NCBI GenBank assembly: GCA_021736785.1
Contig: JAIPFF010000001.1
Location: 1-64,000, forward strand
Direction of reading: 5' to 3'
DNA: 64,000 nt
Source of the DNA: Thiohalocapsa sp.
GTDB taxonomy: Bacteria > Pseudomonadota > Gammaproteobacteria > Chromatiales > Chromatiaceae
The notes under the pieces are model-generated. The model was not told the origin of the DNA and made no database searches. It saw only the letters and a program-made list of their open reading frames with translations. Positions 2,946-53,321 of this stretch are shown one piece after another (the stretch's first letter is position 1; each line of letters begins with the position of its first letter). Both the position numbers and the translations under genes were made by a program.

Positions 2946-4772
2946 TCATGCTACCGCCCCGTCCGCGATCGTCGCGCAGAACGCCCGCCAGCCCCCCAGC
3001 GCGCTGATGTCCCGCGCGCCTTCCGCCGCGAATCCCTCGCAGATGAACCCGGTCTCCCAGCTGCCGTCGTCGAGCTCGACGCGGCCGAGGCCGAGCGGCG
3101 CCGGGATGCCGGCGAGGAAGCTGCCGACTTGCTCGATGGGCAGGGACCAGACCTCGACCTGGATGGCGCTGCCGCCGTCCGGGGCGCGGATCAGGCCGGG
3201 CCGGTGGGGCGGGCCGCCGGGCAGTGCGTAGAAGCGGTAGCGCGGCGCGGTACGGGCGGCGCGGACCAGCCGGCCGCCGCGCTCGGTGAGCTGATGGTTC
3301 AGCGCCAGGCCGGACAGGTGGGCGCCGCAGACGACGATGTTGAGCGTCTGCGGTCGCGCGTCTTCGCCGGAAGCGGCTTGATCCAGAGCGGGCTCGGCGC
3401 GCCGGCCCGTGGCGCCCAGGGTCAGGCCCTGCGCCCGGTGCAGCCGATCCGCGATCCGCGCGAGCTTCGCATCGCTGAAGGCGGCGCCGAACAGTGTGAC
3501 GCCGAAGGGCAAGCCGTCCGCGCGGAAGCCGGCCGGGACGGCCACGGCGGCCAGGTCGAGCAGGTTCATGAAGTTGGTGTAGGTGCCGAGGCGGCTGTTC
3601 AGCGCGATGGGCTCGGCCTCGACTTCGGCGATGCGGTAGATGGTCGGCGCCGTCGGCGTCAGCACGCAGTCCAGGTCGGCGAGGATGGCATCGCAGCGGC
3701 GCCTCAGCGCGGCCAGCCGGTATTGGGCCTTGAACGCGTCCACGGCGCGGGCTTCCTTGGCCGGCGCGATGATTTGCCGCGTCACGTCCAGCAGCGCATC
3801 GGGCTCGGCCTCGATGAAGTCCTGGATTGCGGCATAGCGCTCGGCGACCCACGGACCCTCGTAGAGCAGCCGCGCGGCCTCGGCGAAGGGCGTGAAGTCG
3901 ATCTCGACCGGCGTGCCGCCGAGCGCGCGCAGCCGCGCGGCGGTGTCCGCGAACAGCCGGGCGCTAGCCTCGTCGCCGAAGCATTCGAGCTCCCGCGGCA
4001 CGCCGAAGCGGAAGCGCCCGTCGGGCGCTTGGCCGGCGCTGCTCGCCGGCGCGGGTCGCGCGTACGGGTCGTCGGCGTCGAAATCGGCGGCAACGGCCAT
4101 CACCGCCTGCGCATCGGCGACCCCCAGCGCGAAGATGCTCACGCAGTCGAGGGTCCGGCAGGCCGGAACGACACCCGCGGTCGACAGCAGCCCGCGCGTC
4201 GGCTTAATGCCGACGAGGTTATTGAACGCCGCCGGCACGCGCCCGGACCCGGCGGTGTCGGTGCCGAGTGAGAAGCTGGCCAGCCCTTGCGCGACGGCGA
4301 CCGCCGAGCCCGAGCTGGAGCCGCCGGCGATGAATGCCGGGTCGAAGGCGTTCGGCGTGGCGCCGAAGGGCGAGCGGGTGCCGACCAGCCCGGTCGCGAA
4401 CTGATCCAGGTTGGTCTTGCCGATCGGGATCGCGCCGGCCGCGATCAGCCGCTCGACCACGTGCGCCGAGCGCTCGGGCACATAGGCGAAGCGCGGGCAC
4501 GCGGCCGTGGTCGGGACGCCGGCCAAGTCGATATTGTCCTTGATCGCGAACGGGATACCGTACAGCGGCAGCGCGGCCGGGTCCGACGCCTCGAGCCGGG
4601 CCAGGTACGGCTCCAGCTCGGCGTCGCTCAGCACATGTAGCCAGATAGGTCCCGGCACGCCGGCGCCGATGCGCTTGCGAATGTCGTCGATCAAATCCCT
4701 CGGCAACACCTCACCCGCGAGATAGCGGCCTCGCAAATGGCGGATGGAGAGCGTCATGGTTTGCTTTGTCAT
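2946..4772 (-). CDS. atzF: allophanate hydrolase
   Basis: 608 residues, the usual size. Hydrolyses allophanate to two ammonia and two CO2, the last step of this operon's pathway. Seen: amidase-signature fold with catalytic Lys78 (PFAIKDN), the serine cluster GGSSSGS at 151-157 and nucleophile Ser176 in DTAGSGR, followed after residue ~480 by the C-terminal domain that begins LNIVVCGAHLSG and ends with the GFICEG and ALGGWRAF motifs. Start ATG 4772 (MTKQTMT) is preferred over the frame's first ATG 4931, whose added 53 residues are arginine-rich and unlike the family. Last gene of the guanidine operon, 178 bases after the carboxylase. Known: in guanidine pathways the same enzyme takes allophanate produced by carboxyguanidine deiminase. 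Confidence 0.95.
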   Translation of the reverse strand: MTKQTMTLSIRHLRGRYLAGEVLPRDLIDDIRKRIGAGVPGPIWLHVLSDAELEPYLARLEASDPAALPLYGIPFAIKDNIDLAGVPTTAACPRFAYVPERSAHVVERLIAAGAIPIGKTNLDQFATGLVGTRSPFGATPNAFDPAFIAGGSSSGSAVAVAQGLASFSLGTDTAGSGRVPAAFNNLVGIKPTRGLLSTAGVVPACRTLDCVSIFALGVADAQAVMAVAADFDADDPYARPAPASSAGQAPDGRFRFGVPRELECFGDEASARLFADTAARLRALGGTPVEIDFTPFAEAARLLYEGPWVAERYAAIQDFIEAEPDALLDVTRQIIAPAKEARAVDAFKAQYRLAALRRRCDAILADLDCVLTPTAPTIYRIAEVEAEPIALNSRLGTYTNFMNLLDLAAVAVPAGFRADGLPFGVTLFGAAFSDAKLARIADRLHRAQGLTLGATGRRAEPALDQAASGEDARPQTLNIVVCGAHLSGLALNHQLTERGGRLVRAARTAPRYRFYALPGGPPHRPGLIRAPDGGSAIQVEVWSLPIEQVGSFLAGIPAPLGLGRVELDDGSWETGFICEGFAAEGARDISALGGWRAFCATIADGAVA

Positions 4773-4950: not shown

Positions 4951-7900
4951 TCAACCGCCGACGTCGATCACCGCCAACGTCTGTCCCGGCGAGACTTGGG
5001 CGCCGGCCCGGCACAGCACGCGGGCGACGATGCCGGTGTCCACCGCGTGGATCGCGATCTCCATCTTCATGGACTCCAGCACCAGCAGCACCTGACCGGC
5101 CTCGACCCGGTCGCCGGGCTGAACGTCCAGCTGCCAGACGCTGCCGTGCACATGGCTTTCCACGGCGCGCTCGTGGTCGCCGAGGGCGGGCTCCTCGGGC
5201 TGCTCGTCGATGACCGCCGCGGCGCCGCTGCCGAGGTCCGCCTGGCCGGCGGCGGCCCAGCGCTCGCGCTCGGCGTCGAAGGCGGCCTGCTGGCGGCCCT
5301 TGAACGCGGCGATGGATTCCGCGTTTGCCGCCAGGAAGGCGTCGTAGTCGGCGAGCTCGAAGCGGGTCTCCTCGACGCGCAGCTTCAGCCCGCCGCGCGG
5401 GAAGGCCTCGCGCAGCTCCAGCAGTTCCTCCGCCGAGACCGGATAGAAACGGATCTGATCGAAGAAGCGCAGCAGCCAGGGCTGCTGGAAGTCCGCGGTC
5501 TTGCGGTAGCGGTTCCACATCTGCACCGTGCGGCCGACGAATTGGTAGCCGCCCGGGCCCTCCATGCCGTAGACGCAGAGATAGGAGCCGCCGATGCCCA
5601 CCGCGTTCTCCGGCGTCCAGGTCCGCGCCGGGTTGTACTTGGTGGTGACCAGCCGATGGCGCGGATCCAGCGGTGTCGCCACCGGCGCGCCCAGGTAGAC
5701 GTCGCCGAGGCCCATGACCAGATAACTGGCCTCGAAGACGATCCGGCGCACCTCGTCGATATTGTCGAGCCCGTTGATGCGGCGGATGAACTCGATATTG
5801 CTCGGGCACCAGGGCGCGTCCGGGCGCACCGACTGCATGTACTTGTCGATGGCCAGGCGCGTGGACGGGTCGTCCCAGGACAGGGGCAGGTGCACGATCC
5901 GGGCCGGCACGCCGGCGCCGTCGACGCCGCCGAGGTCCGCGTCCAGCGCGCGCAGGTGGTCGATCAGTCGCGTGAGCGGCAGCGCCTTGCTGTCGTAATG
6001 GACCTGCAGCGAGCGGATGCCCGGTGTCAGCTCCAAGACGCCTGAGATCGGATTCGCCTGCAGCGCCAGCATCAGCGCATGCACCCGAAAGCGCAGCCGG
6101 ATGTCGAGCACCTGGGGTCCGTATTCCACCAGCAGGTACTTGTCGCCCGAGGGGCGGTAGACGACGCCGGTCGGGTGTGCGTCGTCGTCGAGCACCAGCA
6201 CGCGCGGGTCGCCGGGGGGCACCGGCACGATGCTCGGGGCGCTGGCGGGTGCCGGAAGGCGCAGCGCATCGATCAGCGCCGTCTGCGCGCTCTCCAATGC
6301 CCGCGCAGCGGCCTGATCGATGGGGGCGAAGCGCACCCGATCACCGGGGCGCAGCTGGCCCAGCTTCCAGCGATCCGCCGCGACCACCGTGGCCGGGCAG
6401 ACGAAGCCGCCCAGGCTCGGCCCGTCGGGCCCCAGGATGACCGGCATATCGCCGGTGAAGTCGACGGTGCCGATGGCGTAGGCGTTGTCGTGGATGTTCG
6501 ACGGGTGCAGCCCGGCCTCGCCGCCGTCGGTCCGTGCCCAGGCGGGCTTGGGGCCGATCAGGCGCACGCCGGTGCGGCTGGAGTTGTAGTGCACTTCCCA
6601 GTCGGTGGCGAAGAAGGTCGCGATATCTTCGTCGGTGAAGAAGTCCGGCGCGCCGTGGGGGCCGTAGATGACGTGCAGCTGCCAGCGGTCGGTATAGACC
6701 GGCATCGCCTGCGGCGCCAAGCCGGGCGCGCCCGGCGCCGGCGCCTCGTCGGCGCACAGGTGCAGCACGTCGCCGACCTGCAGCGTGCGGCCGCCGTGGC
6801 CGCCGAATTGGCCCAGCGTAAAGGTCGCGCGGCTGCCCAGATAGGCCGGCACCTGGATGCCGCCGCGCACGGTCAGGTACGCCCGGGCGCCGGCGCCGGT
6901 CACTTGGCCGATGCGAAGCTCCGCGCCGGCGGGGACTTGGATGGGCCGCCACCAGGGCACCGGCGCGCCGTCCAGGGACGCGTCCATTTCGGCGCCGGTC
7001 AGGCAGACCCAGGCGCTGCCGCGAAAGCGCAGCGTCGGTCCGCTGACGGTCAGCTCCAAGCCCGCCGCGTCGGGCGGATTGCCGAGCAGCCGGTTGCCGA
7101 GCCGGAAGGCCAGGTCGTCCATGGGTCCGGACGGCGGTACGCCGACATCCCAATGGCCGACACGGCCCGGCCAGTCCTGCACCGTGGTCTGGGTGCCGGC
7201 CGCGAGTACGTCGATCGCGGGGCTTTTATAGCGGAAACCGTCCAGATAGCGGGTGCTGTGCGTTGCGGCCGCCAGCACCGGATCGGCCGCGACCTGTCGC
7301 AGCCAGGCCAGATTGGTCTCGATGCCGGCAAGCTCGGTGCGGGCCAGGGCGTCCGCGAGCTTGGCCAAGGCGCCGTCGCGGTCCGGCGCGCGCACGATCA
7401 GCTTCGCGAGCATGGGGTCGTAGAACGCGGGTACCTCGCTGCCGGCCTCGACCCAGGTGTCGCAGCGCACGCCGTCCGGCCAGACCACGCGGGTCAACAG
7501 CCCGGCGCTGGGCTGGAAGGCCTTGCCCGGGTCCTCGGCGTAGATGCGCGCCTGGATCGCGTGGCCGTCGGGGCGCGGTGCATGCAGCGCCAGATCCCGC
7601 AACTCGCCGGCACCGAGGCGCACCATCCATTCCACGAGATCGATGCCGGTGACGGCCTCGGTGACGCCGTGCTCCACCTGCAGCCGGGTGTTGACCTCGA
7701 GGAAGTAGAAGTCGCCGGTGTCCGGGTCGTAAATGAACTCCACGGTGCCGGCGGAGCGATAGCCCACCGACTCGCCGAGCCGGCGGGCGGTCTCCAGCAT
7801 CCGCTCACGCACGATCTCGCCGAGGCCCGGCGCCGGCGTCTCCTCGATGACCTTTTGGTTGCGCCGCTGCAGCGAGCAGTCGCGCTCGCCCAGCGCCAGC

Positions 7901-50179: not shown

Positions 50180-50875
50180 TCAGCGGATACGCAAGCGCGG
50201 CGTGCCGCCGAGGTTGGCGGGGCGCTCCGCGTGCAACTGCCGAGGGGTTGAGCGCGCCGGCGCGAGCATGTGCTCGGAGCGGCACTGTTGCAGCACCCAG
50301 TCGGTGACGCCTTCCTCTGCCAATGCGCGCGAGAGCCGGTCCAGGTAGGCGTCATCGTCGAGCCCCGGCGGCGGAGTGGTGCGCACCTCCAGCTCGACGT
50401 CGGCTGCAAGCAGACGGCGCAGGCTTTCCCATGCCGGCACGCCGGAGCCCGGCCTGCCCGTGACCGATGGGTAGTCTTCGGGTAATGCCTTGATGTCGAG
50501 GCCGACCCAATCGACCAACGGTACCAGCCGACCAAGGCGATCCGGATACGGGCCACCGGTATGTAGGCCGACCTTGAATCCGAGCCCACGCACGGCCTCG
50601 ACGGCTGCCGTCAGCGCCGCCTGTGCCGTCGGCTCGCCGCCGCTGAAGACCACCGCGTCGAGCAGGCCGCGCCGGTTTTCGAGGAAGGCGAGCACCTGAT
50701 CCCAATCGAGTATGTCGCCGTCAGTCTCCACCAGATGAGCGTTGTGGCAATAGCCGCAACGCCAGGGGCAGCCTCGGCAGTAGATCACGGCGGCCAGCTC
50801 GCCGGGGAAATCGACCGTCGTCAACGGAGTCAGGCCGCCGATGCGCAGAATGGTTTCGGGCGCGGTTGCTGTCAC
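50180..50875 (-). CDS. nrdG: anaerobic ribonucleotide reductase activating protein
   Basis: 231 residues from GTG 50875. Radical SAM enzyme that installs the glycyl radical on the anaerobic reductase. Seen: the cluster-binding CPWRCGYC (CxxxCxxC) near residue 40, GGEPTAQ SAM site and LHTGGPYPDRL. The start at GTG (VTATAPETILRIG) gives the family N-terminus; the ATG 50962 alternative adds an Arg-rich segment. Next to the split nrdD genes on the same strand, so likely one operon. Confidence 0.9.
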   Translation of the reverse strand: MTATAPETILRIGGLTPLTTVDFPGELAAVIYCRGCPWRCGYCHNAHLVETDGDILDWDQVLAFLENRRGLLDAVVFSGGEPTAQAALTAAVEAVRGLGFKVGLHTGGPYPDRLGRLVPLVDWVGLDIKALPEDYPSVTGRPGSGVPAWESLRRLLAADVELEVRTTPPPGLDDDAYLDRLSRALAEEGVTDWVLQQCRSEHMLAPARSTPRQLHAERPANLGGTPRLRIR

Positions 50876-50968
50876 GAGCGGGCGGATCGTCGTGTGCGAG
50901 GGGCGGCGGCCGCGCGGGCGGCAGGCGCGGCCCCGCGAGGTCCGGGCAGGCCGACCTGCCATCGCCGA

Positions 50969-51163
50969 TCAGGCCGCGGCACGGCGACGTCGGGCCTGAC
51001 TTTGCGAGCCGCTCGGCGCCTCGCGGAAATAGGTGCGCTCCGCGTGCTCCGAGCGCTTGCCGGCATTGAAGGCCGAGACCGGGCGGTGGTAGCCCATGAC
51101 GCGCGTCCAGACCTCGCACCGCGTGCGCTCTGCGTCGTCGAGGATGATGTCTTGGTTGGGCAT
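50969..51163 (-). CDS. separate glycyl-radical domain of class III ribonucleotide reductase
   Basis: 64 residues from ATG 51163, chosen over ATG 51208 because AGGAG lies 9 bases upstream of it. The sequence RTRCEVWTRVMGYHRPVSAFNAGKRSEHAERTYF (here split: TRVMGYHRPVSAFNAGK, then RSEHAERTYF) is what normally ends NrdD after its zinc site; Gly24 in RVMGY would hold the radical. It is in a different frame from nrdD and follows its stop by 58 bases. The tail (SQSQARRRRAAA) is basic. Interpretation as a functional separate subunit is inference; the alternative is a frameshift-split nrdD. Confidence 0.8.
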   Translation of the reverse strand: MPNQDIILDDAERTRCEVWTRVMGYHRPVSAFNAGKRSEHAERTYFREAPSGSQSQARRRRAAA

Positions 51164-51221
51164 GGAGAGTGCTCCTGTCTGTGTCTTGATAAGTGTCGTG
51201 TCGGTCATGCGGCAGCGCCGG

Positions 51222-53321
51222 TCAGCCGGCAGTCGCCGTTGCCTGCGCCGATGAGTCGTTTGCGGGCTCGCCTTCGGCCCGGATGCCCGGACGCCGTGCG
51301 GCCTCGGCCTGTTTCCGTGCCCGGAGCTCATCGTCGCAGATCGGACAGAACTCGTGCTCGCCGGCGATGTAGCCGTGGTGCGGGCAGATCGAGAACACGG
51401 GTGTCACCGTGATGTAGGGCAGCCGGAAGTTCGTCAGCGAGCGGCGCACCAAGCGCTTGCAGGCCTCGGTGGAGCTGATGTGCTCGCTCATGTAGAGGTG
51501 CAGCACGGTGCCGCCGGTGTACTTGGACTGCAAGGCGTGCTGCATCTCCAGTGCCTGGTACGGATCATCGGTGTAGCCCGCCGGCAGCTGGGACGAGTTC
51601 GTGTAGTACGGCGCCTCGTCGGAGCCGGACTGGATGATGCCGGGGAAGCGCTTCTTGTCCTCGCGGGCAAAGCGGTAGGTGGTGCCCTCGGCCGGCGTCG
51701 CCTCGAGGTTGTACATGTGGCCGGTTTCTTCCTGGAAGGTCACCATGCGCGTGCGCACGTGGTCCAGGAAGCGCTCGGCGAAGGCGTGCCCCCACTCGGT
51801 GGTGATGTCTTCGGCATCGTCGGTGAAGTTGCGGATCAGCTCATTGATGCCGTTGACGCCGATGGTGCTGAAGTGGTTACGCAGCGTACCGAGGTAGCGC
51901 TTGGTATAGGGGAAGAGCCCGGCGTCCATGTGGCGCTGGATCACCTTGCGCTTGAGCTCCAGGCTCTTGCGGGCCAGTTCCAGCAGCCGGTCGAGCTGCG
52001 CGAGCAGACCGGCCTCGTCGCCGCGGTGGGTGTGGCCGAGGCGCGCGCAGTTGACGGTGACGACGCCGAGGGACCCGGTCTGCTCGGCGGAGCCGAACAG
52101 CCCGTTGCCGCGCTTGAGCAGCTCGCGCAGGTCCAACTGCAGGCGGCAGCACATGGAGCGCACCATGTTCGGCGAGAGCTCCGAGTTGATGAAGTTCTGG
52201 AAGTAGGGCAGGCCGTACTTGGCCGTCATCGCGAACAGCAGCTCGGCGTTCTCGCTCTCCCAGGGGAAGTCCGGCGTGATGTTGTAGGTCGGAATCGGGA
52301 ACGTGAAGATACGGCCCTTGGCGTCGCCCTCGGTCATCACCTCGATGTAGGCGCGGTTGATCAGGTCCATTTCGGCCTGCAGGTCGCCGTAGGTGAAGGG
52401 CTGCTCGACGCCGCCGATCAACGGCACCTGCTCGCGCAGGTCCTCCGGGCAGACCCAGTCGAAGGTCAGGTTCGTGAACGGCGTCTGGCAGCCCCAGCGC
52501 GAGGGCACGTTGAGGTTGTAGATCAGCTCCTGGATGTACTGCTTGACCTGCTTATAGCTCAGACCGTCGATGCGCACGTATGGCGCCATGTAGGTATCGA
52601 AGCTGGAGAAGGCCTGGGCGCCGGCCCATTCGTTCTGCAGCGTGCCGAGGAAATTGACGATCTGCCCGATGGCCGACGACATATGCTTCGGCGGGCCGGC
52701 CTCCACCTTGCCGGGTACGCCGTTCAGCCCCTCGTTGAGCAGGGTGCGCAGGGACCATCCGGCGCAATAACCCGCGAGCATGTCGAGATCGTGGATATGC
52801 ATGTCGCCGTCGCGATGGGCCTGGCCGACCTCGGGCGGGTAGACGTGGCTCAGCCAGTAGTTGGCGATCATCTTGCCCGAGGTGTTCAGAATCAGCCCGC
52901 CCAGGGAGTAGCCCTGGTTGGCGTTGGCGGCGACGCGCCAATCGGAGCGGTCCAGATATTCGTTGATGGACGAGGCGACATCCACCAGCGTGTGCCGGTC
53001 CGCGCGCAGCTTGGCGCGCTGCTCGCGGTAGACGATGTAGGAGCGGGCGGTCTCGAAGTGGTTGGCGCTGATCAGCGTCTGCTCGACGATGTCCTGGATG
53101 CCCTCGATGTCGGGCACCCGGCCGCTGTTGCAGCGGTGGGCGATGACCTTGACCACCTGAGCGCACAGCAGCGCCGCTTCCAGCTCGGCGTACTCGCCGG
53201 TGGCGCGCCCGGCGCGCAGGATGGCGGATTCGATTTTGGCGCCGTCGAAGGGGACTTCCTCGCCGCTGCGCTTGCGAACCCGTGTCGGCAGTGTGGCGAG
53301 TGCCGGCGGTATCTTATCCAT
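51222..53321 (-). CDS. nrdD: anaerobic ribonucleoside-triphosphate reductase, large subunit without its glycyl-radical tail
   Basis: 699 residues. Seen: N-terminal ATP cone (~12-105), the class III ten-stranded barrel with conserved VFTFPIPTYNIT-like and MCCRLQLDL segments, and the zinc site CPHHGYIAGEHEFCPICDDE near residue 660. After this the protein ends in an Ala/Glu-rich tail (~30 residues) with no RVxGY motif; that motif is on the next small ORF. Upstream lie an NrdR-like box and a perfect FNR-like box, consistent with anaerobic use. Confidence 0.93.
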   Translation of the reverse strand: MDKIPPALATLPTRVRKRSGEEVPFDGAKIESAILRAGRATGEYAELEAALLCAQVVKVIAHRCNSGRVPDIEGIQDIVEQTLISANHFETARSYIVYREQRAKLRADRHTLVDVASSINEYLDRSDWRVAANANQGYSLGGLILNTSGKMIANYWLSHVYPPEVGQAHRDGDMHIHDLDMLAGYCAGWSLRTLLNEGLNGVPGKVEAGPPKHMSSAIGQIVNFLGTLQNEWAGAQAFSSFDTYMAPYVRIDGLSYKQVKQYIQELIYNLNVPSRWGCQTPFTNLTFDWVCPEDLREQVPLIGGVEQPFTYGDLQAEMDLINRAYIEVMTEGDAKGRIFTFPIPTYNITPDFPWESENAELLFAMTAKYGLPYFQNFINSELSPNMVRSMCCRLQLDLRELLKRGNGLFGSAEQTGSLGVVTVNCARLGHTHRGDEAGLLAQLDRLLELARKSLELKRKVIQRHMDAGLFPYTKRYLGTLRNHFSTIGVNGINELIRNFTDDAEDITTEWGHAFAERFLDHVRTRMVTFQEETGHMYNLEATPAEGTTYRFAREDKKRFPGIIQSGSDEAPYYTNSSQLPAGYTDDPYQALEMQHALQSKYTGGTVLHLYMSEHISSTEACKRLVRRSLTNFRLPYITVTPVFSICPHHGYIAGEHEFCPICDDELRARKQAEAARRPGIRAEGEPANDSSAQATATAG

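Follow-up and report, generated by a model that had tools for sequence, protein, structure and literature searches.

The 64,000-nucleotide stretch of Thiohalocapsa sp. DNA analysed here (contig JAIPFF010000001.1; hereafter the window) carries on its minus strand the genes of a class III ribonucleotide reductase (RNR). We found that the glycyl-radical domain (GRD) of this enzyme is absent from the catalytic subunit NrdD and is encoded by a separate open reading frame (ORF) of 64 residues, located between nrdD and nrdG, the gene of the activase. The features of the locus are as follows.

51222..53321, minus strand: NrdD, class III RNR catalytic subunit, 699 residues, stop TGA, without a glycyl-radical segment
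52755..52772, minus strand: GYCAGW, conserved segment with the putative beta-A cysteine, NrdD residues 184-189, invariant in alignment A3 (45 rows)
52143..52154, minus strand: MCCR finger-loop motif, NrdD residues 390-393
51336..51386, minus strand: putative zinc site CPHHGYIAGEHEFCPIC, NrdD residues 646-662, final conserved part of NrdD
51172..51176, minus strand: AGGAG ahead of the small ORF, resembling a ribosome-binding site (coordinates counted off the printed letters)
50969..51163, minus strand: stand-alone GRD, 64 residues, ATG start, 58 bases past NrdD and at frame offset 1 to it; Gly24 codon at 51092-51094
50180..50962, minus strand: NrdG activase of the radical S-adenosylmethionine (SAM) type, 260 residues counted from the first ATG; TIGR02495 (NrdG2), 186 bits (cut-off 131); PF04055
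53411..53424, strand not assigned: palindrome TTGATCTCGATCAA, TTGAT-N4-ATCAA, FNR/ANR-type, 90 bases upstream of nrdD

NrdD scores 1127 bits against NF006126 (cut-off 548) and 575 bits against the Pfam family NRDD (PF13597), of which it covers profile positions 2-530 of 562, and an ATP-cone (PF03477, 75.5 bits) occupies its residues 14-103. Its identity to the ten top-ranking genome loci (L001-L010) is 83-87%. According to section 2.5 of PMC9669993, MCCR is one of the two dominant finger-loop motifs of class III enzymes (MGCR/MCCR); the same section describes the role of the beta-A cysteine, which GYCAGW probably supplies here. The NrdG activase expected of a class III RNR is encoded right after the small ORF, its real initiation site perhaps lying further inside than the first ATG.

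The last conserved element of NrdD is a C-x2-H...C-x2-C pattern present in 80 of 81 NrdD rows, the remaining row (L072) being masked there, and we take CPHHGYIAGEHEFCPIC to ligate zinc as in the family at large. The protein ends 37 residues later, and a search for the glycyl-radical motif [RKT][VIT]xG[YF] returned nothing anywhere in its 699 residues. The radical segment of the locus, CEVWTRVMGYHRP, lies in the adjacent ORF, with Gly24 within TRVMGYHRP, and the start of this ORF is preceded by GACAGGAGCACTCTCC-ATG, which includes the AGGAG. The first-pass annotation had described both ORFs in these terms, down to the gap, the frame and the RVMGYHRP-type segment, and had named a radical motif elsewhere in NrdD as a finding that would overturn its reading; its description holds.

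Residues 14-46 of the small ORF match NRDD positions 532-562 with 32.9 bits (gathering score 26.2), meaning that a single profile is divided at one point between the two ORFs, 2-530 in NrdD and 532-562 in the small one. NRDD is its sole Pfam match at E<=0.001, with no match to the GRD of the pyruvate formate-lyase (PFL) type, and all five of its NCBIfam matches are NrdD models, each under its cut-off. A PDB search with the 64-residue protein gave no match up to E 10. At the level of the ORF the product would thus be a free-standing small protein with a radical glycine, as GrcA/YfiD is, and it is the one GRD match in the genome of the window (E up to 1). Comparing the GRD core of the window with its relatives, we found mean proportions of non-synonymous (pN) and synonymous (pS) differences of 0.172 and 0.586, with pN<pS in 77 of 77 comparisons, the fused relative L068 among them. 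The core of the small ORF is under purifying selection.

The palindrome upstream of nrdD, presumably an FNR/ANR site, is the single exact TTGAT-N4-ATCAA match in the window, where 0.03 would be expected, and it fits anaerobic control of the genes.

Conservation of the split and fused forms

Bacterial and archaeal genomes were scanned for NrdD relatives, and the best 80 of 565 loci were all examined. A separate downstream GRD ORF is present in 77 of the 80; one locus (L068) is fused, and another two (L011, L062) are cut off by the end of the contig. Among the 77 split loci all three relative frames occur (28, 25 and 24 loci), and the gap between NrdD and GRD ranges from -23 to 376 bases (median 27), with 15 GRD ORFs overlapping NrdD. 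A Shine-Dalgarno-like stretch precedes the chosen GRD start in 76 of the 77, a count biased upward by picking starts to favour such a stretch. NrdG was found in the examined flank of 75 of the 80 loci. These loci are mostly from Pseudomonadota; the names of a few records point to Acidobacteria, Verrucomicrobia, Deltaproteobacteria or Geobacteraceae, and Hydrogenedentota. The fused L068 is the one from Deltaproteobacteria, and that of Hydrogenedentota is one of the two cut by a contig end. Furthermore, in a sample of 398 genomes of the phylum, NrdD exceeded the family cut-off in 16 genomes (that of the window included), all 16 with a GRD match; judged by open frames, 13 of them are split and 3 fused.

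The small ORF has been met by annotators before, as its RefSeq name on several plasmids, including those of other genera, is “nrdD, anaerobic ribonucleoside-triphosphate reductase”; the first-pass annotation had mentioned similar short ORFs so named in this group. On pHG1 of Cupriavidus necator H16, a NrdD of 676 residues is followed by the small ORF H16_RS32675 (66 residues) and then by NrdG, an arrangement that does not differ in kind from that of the window and is annotated by name only. As cited in a passage of PMC2864759, the NrdDG enzyme of C. necator H16 is reported to be essential for complete denitrification, a finding that backs the whole NrdDG locus and not the small ORF alone.

The same separate ORF in nearly all of the nearest loci, together with pN<pS in the GRD core, places the split beyond chance. 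Collectively, these sequences show that the separate GRD ORF is a feature of the lineage rather than a local break, as the first-pass annotation had supposed.

Fused relatives exist (L068, L085, L120, L123, L174, L084, L088, L124 and the distant L106-L108). In two of them, L120 and L123, zinc site and radical loop are directly adjacent; in L068 and L174, where the parts are joined in the expected order, they are separated by a longer linker similar to the beginning of the small ORF. We placed 105 NrdD bodies on a quick tree, which omits L125 as well as L121, a second entry for the gene of L173; no root was inferred and long branches are present. L088, which has a GF variant of the motif, was set to fused by eye, and L011 and L062 were counted as split. 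On this tree the split/fused label needs 6 changes, and L068 and L174 lie among the split rows, suggesting that the label probably changed several times, in one direction or in both; given the long branches, the tree leaves the direction, splitting or re-fusion, unsettled. The search for fused versions that the first-pass annotation had called for yields no pointer to a frameshift in the window and, together with the absence of a motif elsewhere in NrdD, removes the grounds on which its reading might have failed.

Several relatives show further peculiarities. A Geobacteraceae metagenome-assembled genome (L055) has a second GRD copy about 1.3 kb after the first, with a nearly identical core and an ambiguous start (4251-4427 and 5589-5804). 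On pS11L-3 of Bradyrhizobium japonicum (L089, 3459-4260), GRD and NrdG genes are listed in an incomplete gene table, with an IS3-like transposase upstream instead of NrdD. The NrdD of the Chromatiales genome G501 (L175) is interrupted in frame by about 313 residues with intein-like ends, inserted between the positions that correspond to Q279 and T280 of the window; the NrdD of the window lacks this insert. Among the Chromatiales NrdD matches listed, 30 genomes have a piece whose first residue is 279, the frame in most cases spanning about 1000 residues or more; we regard the insert of L175, the only one that was read, as a putative intein.

Radical domains away from NrdD in hosts and viruses

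Of 195 genomes of the order of the window, taken to be Chromatiales since they include the one with the A. vinosum plasmid and since the nearest named NrdDs come from Chromatiaceae, 139 have a NrdD match and 136 a GRD match, all 136 also with NrdD. In G312 the GRD lies beside NrdG and about 9.1 kb from NrdD on the same strand. Furthermore, 12 of the 136 genomes carry between them 20 extra GRD copies that do not adjoin NrdD. Not counted are the second matches of G494 (a piece of the same gene) and G410 (two adjoining pieces of one broken copy), the weak match of G523 (3.7e-7) and the weak extra pieces of G479 and G505. Of the 20 copies, 16 were retrieved; the other four are G413 C208, G422 C1:94044, G479 3849730 and G540 C234. 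Among the retrieved copies L166 is broken by an early stop, and L161 and L169 have an ambiguous start; no NrdD or NrdG match was found in the 16 stretches, some of which are just 3-4 kb long.

Some of these copies lie in mobile surroundings. Two are on plasmids, pALVIN01 of A. vinosum (G422) and pAt1 of A. tepidum (G407), with no nrdD or nrdG alongside, and in both genomes NrdD is on a different contig (C1). Five others (L157, L158, L161, L162, L170) adjoin tape-measure, portal, major head, tail or lysis genes, and because of these phage-type neighbours they are probably in prophages. Separately, L163-L166 (G501) and L168 (G515) are orphan GRDs in apparent repeated copies of one element, and the large neighbour of L163 matches phrog_1576, a family of unknown function.

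In viruses we examined the best 80 of 196 IMG/VR contigs that encode a relative of the GRD alignment. The GRD is a stand-alone ORF in all 80, and no NrdD or NrdG match was found in the examined flanks. Scans of the whole records with NRDD matched the last part of the profile only (from position 513 or later, of 562) in 80 of 80, with the exception of one sub-threshold extra piece in record G643. The radical glycine is kept in all 80 copies, under search patterns that did not require it, and the other residues invariant in hosts are kept in 99-100% of copies where covered. Among pairs of viral GRDs with pS>0.1, pN<pS in 3112 of 3112 (mean pN 0.22, mean pS 0.86), the pairs being non-independent and pS near saturation.

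PHROG checks of the neighbours covered 16 of the 80 viral loci, six in one set (L186, L203, L214, L232, L240, L254) and ten in a second. Replication initiation, helicase, single-stranded DNA-binding protein, DNA polymerase or clamp-loader genes lie by the GRD in four (L230, L232, L239, L240) and head or tail genes in five (L186, L191, L203, L205, L214); an integrase is near L254, and L251 has a DNA transposition family match. The remaining five gave no PHROG match (L179, L184, L250) or families of unknown function only (L227, L237). The domain itself is already on file as part of phrog_4132 (179 positions), which was matched by 7 of 7 GRD queries within positions 111-155 and for which no function is recorded.

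An N-terminal extension rich in Cys, and mostly in Cys/His, is present in 12 of the 80 viral GRDs (L181, L192, L194, L195, L205, L216, L218, L221, L225, L228, L241, L256) and might imitate the zinc site located ahead of the loop in NrdD. A similar Cys-rich extension occurs in the host copies L158, L162, L167, L170 and L171.

At the setting used, the GenBank phage collection gave four weak matches and no stand-alone GRD among the deposited phage records: two matches are unannotated, long NrdD-like frames, and two are annotated as anaerobic ribonucleoside triphosphate reductase.

A proposed separate radical subunit and its possible exchange

Passages of PMC12288474 and section 2.5 of PMC9669993 describe how, in class III RNR, the glycyl radical made by NrdG is transferred to a cysteine of the active site, and how oxygen cleaves the chain at that glycine. 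The split, its conservation, the selection on the small ORF, the gene order, the dispersed copies and the viral copies without a NrdD body in the examined records are established by sequence. With these in hand, we consider it highly probable that the locus encodes a two-polypeptide class III RNR, one chain being NrdD with ATP-cone, catalytic barrel, finger-loop cysteines and zinc site, the other a GRD of about 60 residues translated from a start of its own. The radical piece, labile to oxygen, would form a subunit that can be exchanged, after the manner of GrcA/YfiD, and of which mobile elements supply copies in trans.

Under this hypothesis, the GRD would most likely bind NrdD at the site taken by the C-terminal radical loop in fused enzymes, NrdG would generate the radical on Gly24, and the radical would be handed from there to the finger-loop cysteine of NrdD. 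As the split is located at the radical loop, oxygen damage would be confined to the 64-residue protein; cleavage at the radical would then cost the small piece alone, which a fresh GRD could replace, by analogy with GrcA/YfiD and damaged PFL. Mobile copies could act in trans because the GRD is a diffusible gene product, and the additional GRDs of plasmids, prophages and phages would serve the host NrdD and sustain the synthesis of deoxynucleoside triphosphates (dNTPs).

That viruses and plasmids carry the GRD by itself suggests a spare radical piece which can be exchanged and which viruses may deliver to the cell. We are inclined, with some hesitation, to see in these copies a mobile pool: phages, prophages and plasmids would carry the GRD of about 60 residues alone, without NrdD or NrdG and in some cases with a Cys/His-rich module, and it would plug into the host NrdD at low oxygen during infection or replication, which the split host enzyme would make possible. 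The first-pass annotation had proposed supply or replacement in trans. That proposal has gained genomic support from the distant GRD of G312, the extra host copies and the viral records with the GRD alone; exchange on the enzyme itself stays hypothetical. Its comparison with YfiD/GrcA stands as a working principle and does not extend to sequence kinship, the GRD belonging by sequence to the NRDD family and not to the PFL type.

A number of observations weigh against this interpretation. Three Chromatiales genomes (G470, G534, G545) have a NrdD match without a GRD match. The fused L068 was predicted twice by AlphaFold, from alignments A3 (45 rows; predicted local distance difference test, pLDDT, 67.5) and A4 (50 rows; pLDDT 77.9), and its GRD stays unplaced in both models (pLDDT about 25-42), lending no support to docking; in A4 the radical loops of viral fusions are not aligned to the L068 loop, and in A2 MAFFT spread the small GRDs over NrdD. 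A Foldseek search with the first L068 model returned class III RNRs as top matches, adding little to the sequence result. None of the viral records has a completeness value of 90% or more, and a NrdD body could lie in their unsequenced parts, which limits its absence to the records and does not establish it for the viruses. Finally, the NrdD alignment picks out 29 viral contigs in IMG/VR that do encode a related NrdD body, and in 19 of these the GRD forms an in-frame part of it; since the two viral scans used different patterns, the numbers give no rate. Among the other ten, four have a separate GRD ORF by motif, and in L261 and L264, which match the query to residue 731, a GRD missed by the motif is likely.

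Two features of these viral NrdDs are recorded in their own right. L263, L282, L284 and L288 have a split pair of their own, a loop-less NrdD with a GRD motif about 60 to 2070 bases past its stop. In 16 of the 29 (L265-L268, L270-L274, L276-L281, L286) a thioredoxin- or glutaredoxin-like end (CPNCK and variants, by eye) follows the glycyl loop, perhaps as a built-in reductant.

Other explanations were weighed against a separate radical subunit. It is unlikely, in our judgement, that phage GRDs inhibit host NrdD or NrdG, or serve as decoys for them, rather than feed the enzyme. Competition by a free GRD for NrdG or for the pocket of NrdD is conceivable, and the lack of NrdD and NrdG matches in the flanks of the 80 viral loci would suit such a role; against it stand the radical glycine and the other invariant residues kept by the viral copies, the replication genes beside 4 of the 16 checked, where extra dNTPs would help the phage, and the comparable PFL spare part that T4 has according to passages cited below. 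We give very little credence to the small protein being an accessory spare for an enzyme with another radical source. Escherichia coli GrcA is, according to those passages, an optional spare of this kind; the NrdD of the window, however, has no radical motif of its own, and its genome offers a single GRD match. Programmed frameshifting or stop readthrough joining both ORFs into one chain seems similarly improbable: although the two ORFs share a frame at 24 of 77 loci, we rejected it on the even frame spread, the widely varying gap with its 15 overlaps, the start with a Shine-Dalgarno-like stretch available at 76 loci, and the distant GRD of G312 and orphan copies. A local frameshift, pseudogene or sequencing error in a fused NrdD can be dismissed with near certainty, as the few fused relatives (L068, L174) make fusion possible in the family but the conservation of the split at 77 of 80 loci in all three frames and with gaps from -23 to 376 bases, the purifying selection on the ORF and its naming as a gene on plasmids of other genera already refute it.

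The separate radical subunit that we favour can be set beside several known systems. Passages of PMC8683613 and PMC12338860 report that GrcA/YfiD replaces the cleaved end of PFL and that phage T4 has its own version, Y06I, and a passage of PMC1524935 reports a glycyl-radical match for T4 vs.6. According to Andorfer et al. 2021 (PMC8683613), the PFL-type YfiD and Y06I are the only validated spare parts, and the repair of other enzymes is called “tempting” speculation. E. coli GrcA and Y06I of T4 have in common with the GRD that they are small, autonomous and glycyl-radical in type, that phages carry such proteins too, and that each completes a large glycyl-radical enzyme together with a radical SAM activase. 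GrcA differs in serving another enzyme and in backing up a complete fused PFL, whereas the NrdD of the window lacks a radical segment; its GRD is of the NRDD type and encoded between nrdD and nrdG. Y06I, the T4 counterpart of GrcA, we take to be vs.6.

Fused class III RNRs (the NrdD of T. maritima, T4, P. copri and S. thermophilus) share with the window the NRDD fold, the finger-loop cysteines, the C-terminal zinc site followed by the glycyl loop, NrdG and, in part, the ATP-cone; in the window the chain is broken between zinc site and loop, and the loop is a second gene. The split class II RNR NrdJa/NrdJb likewise has its C-terminal part as a separate polypeptide and differs in class and chemistry. 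The split nrdD genes of phages in a passage of PMC3653736, attributed to introns, inteins or endonucleases where a cause is given, are a different matter from the host split. In the literature covered, outside which lie most subscription papers and all supplements, we found no account of NrdD being split from its radical domain, and none of phages with a stand-alone GRD of the NrdD kind.

Oxygen destroys glycyl-radical enzymes at the site of the radical. Here an enzyme of DNA-precursor synthesis appears to have a permanent separate radical subunit in many bacteria, and mobile elements carry the radical piece alone, which makes the question directly testable with three purified proteins. If this reading is right, NrdD assays that omit the small protein may overlook the subunit bearing the radical, and a phage auxiliary gene that PHROGs files under unknown function would be defined.

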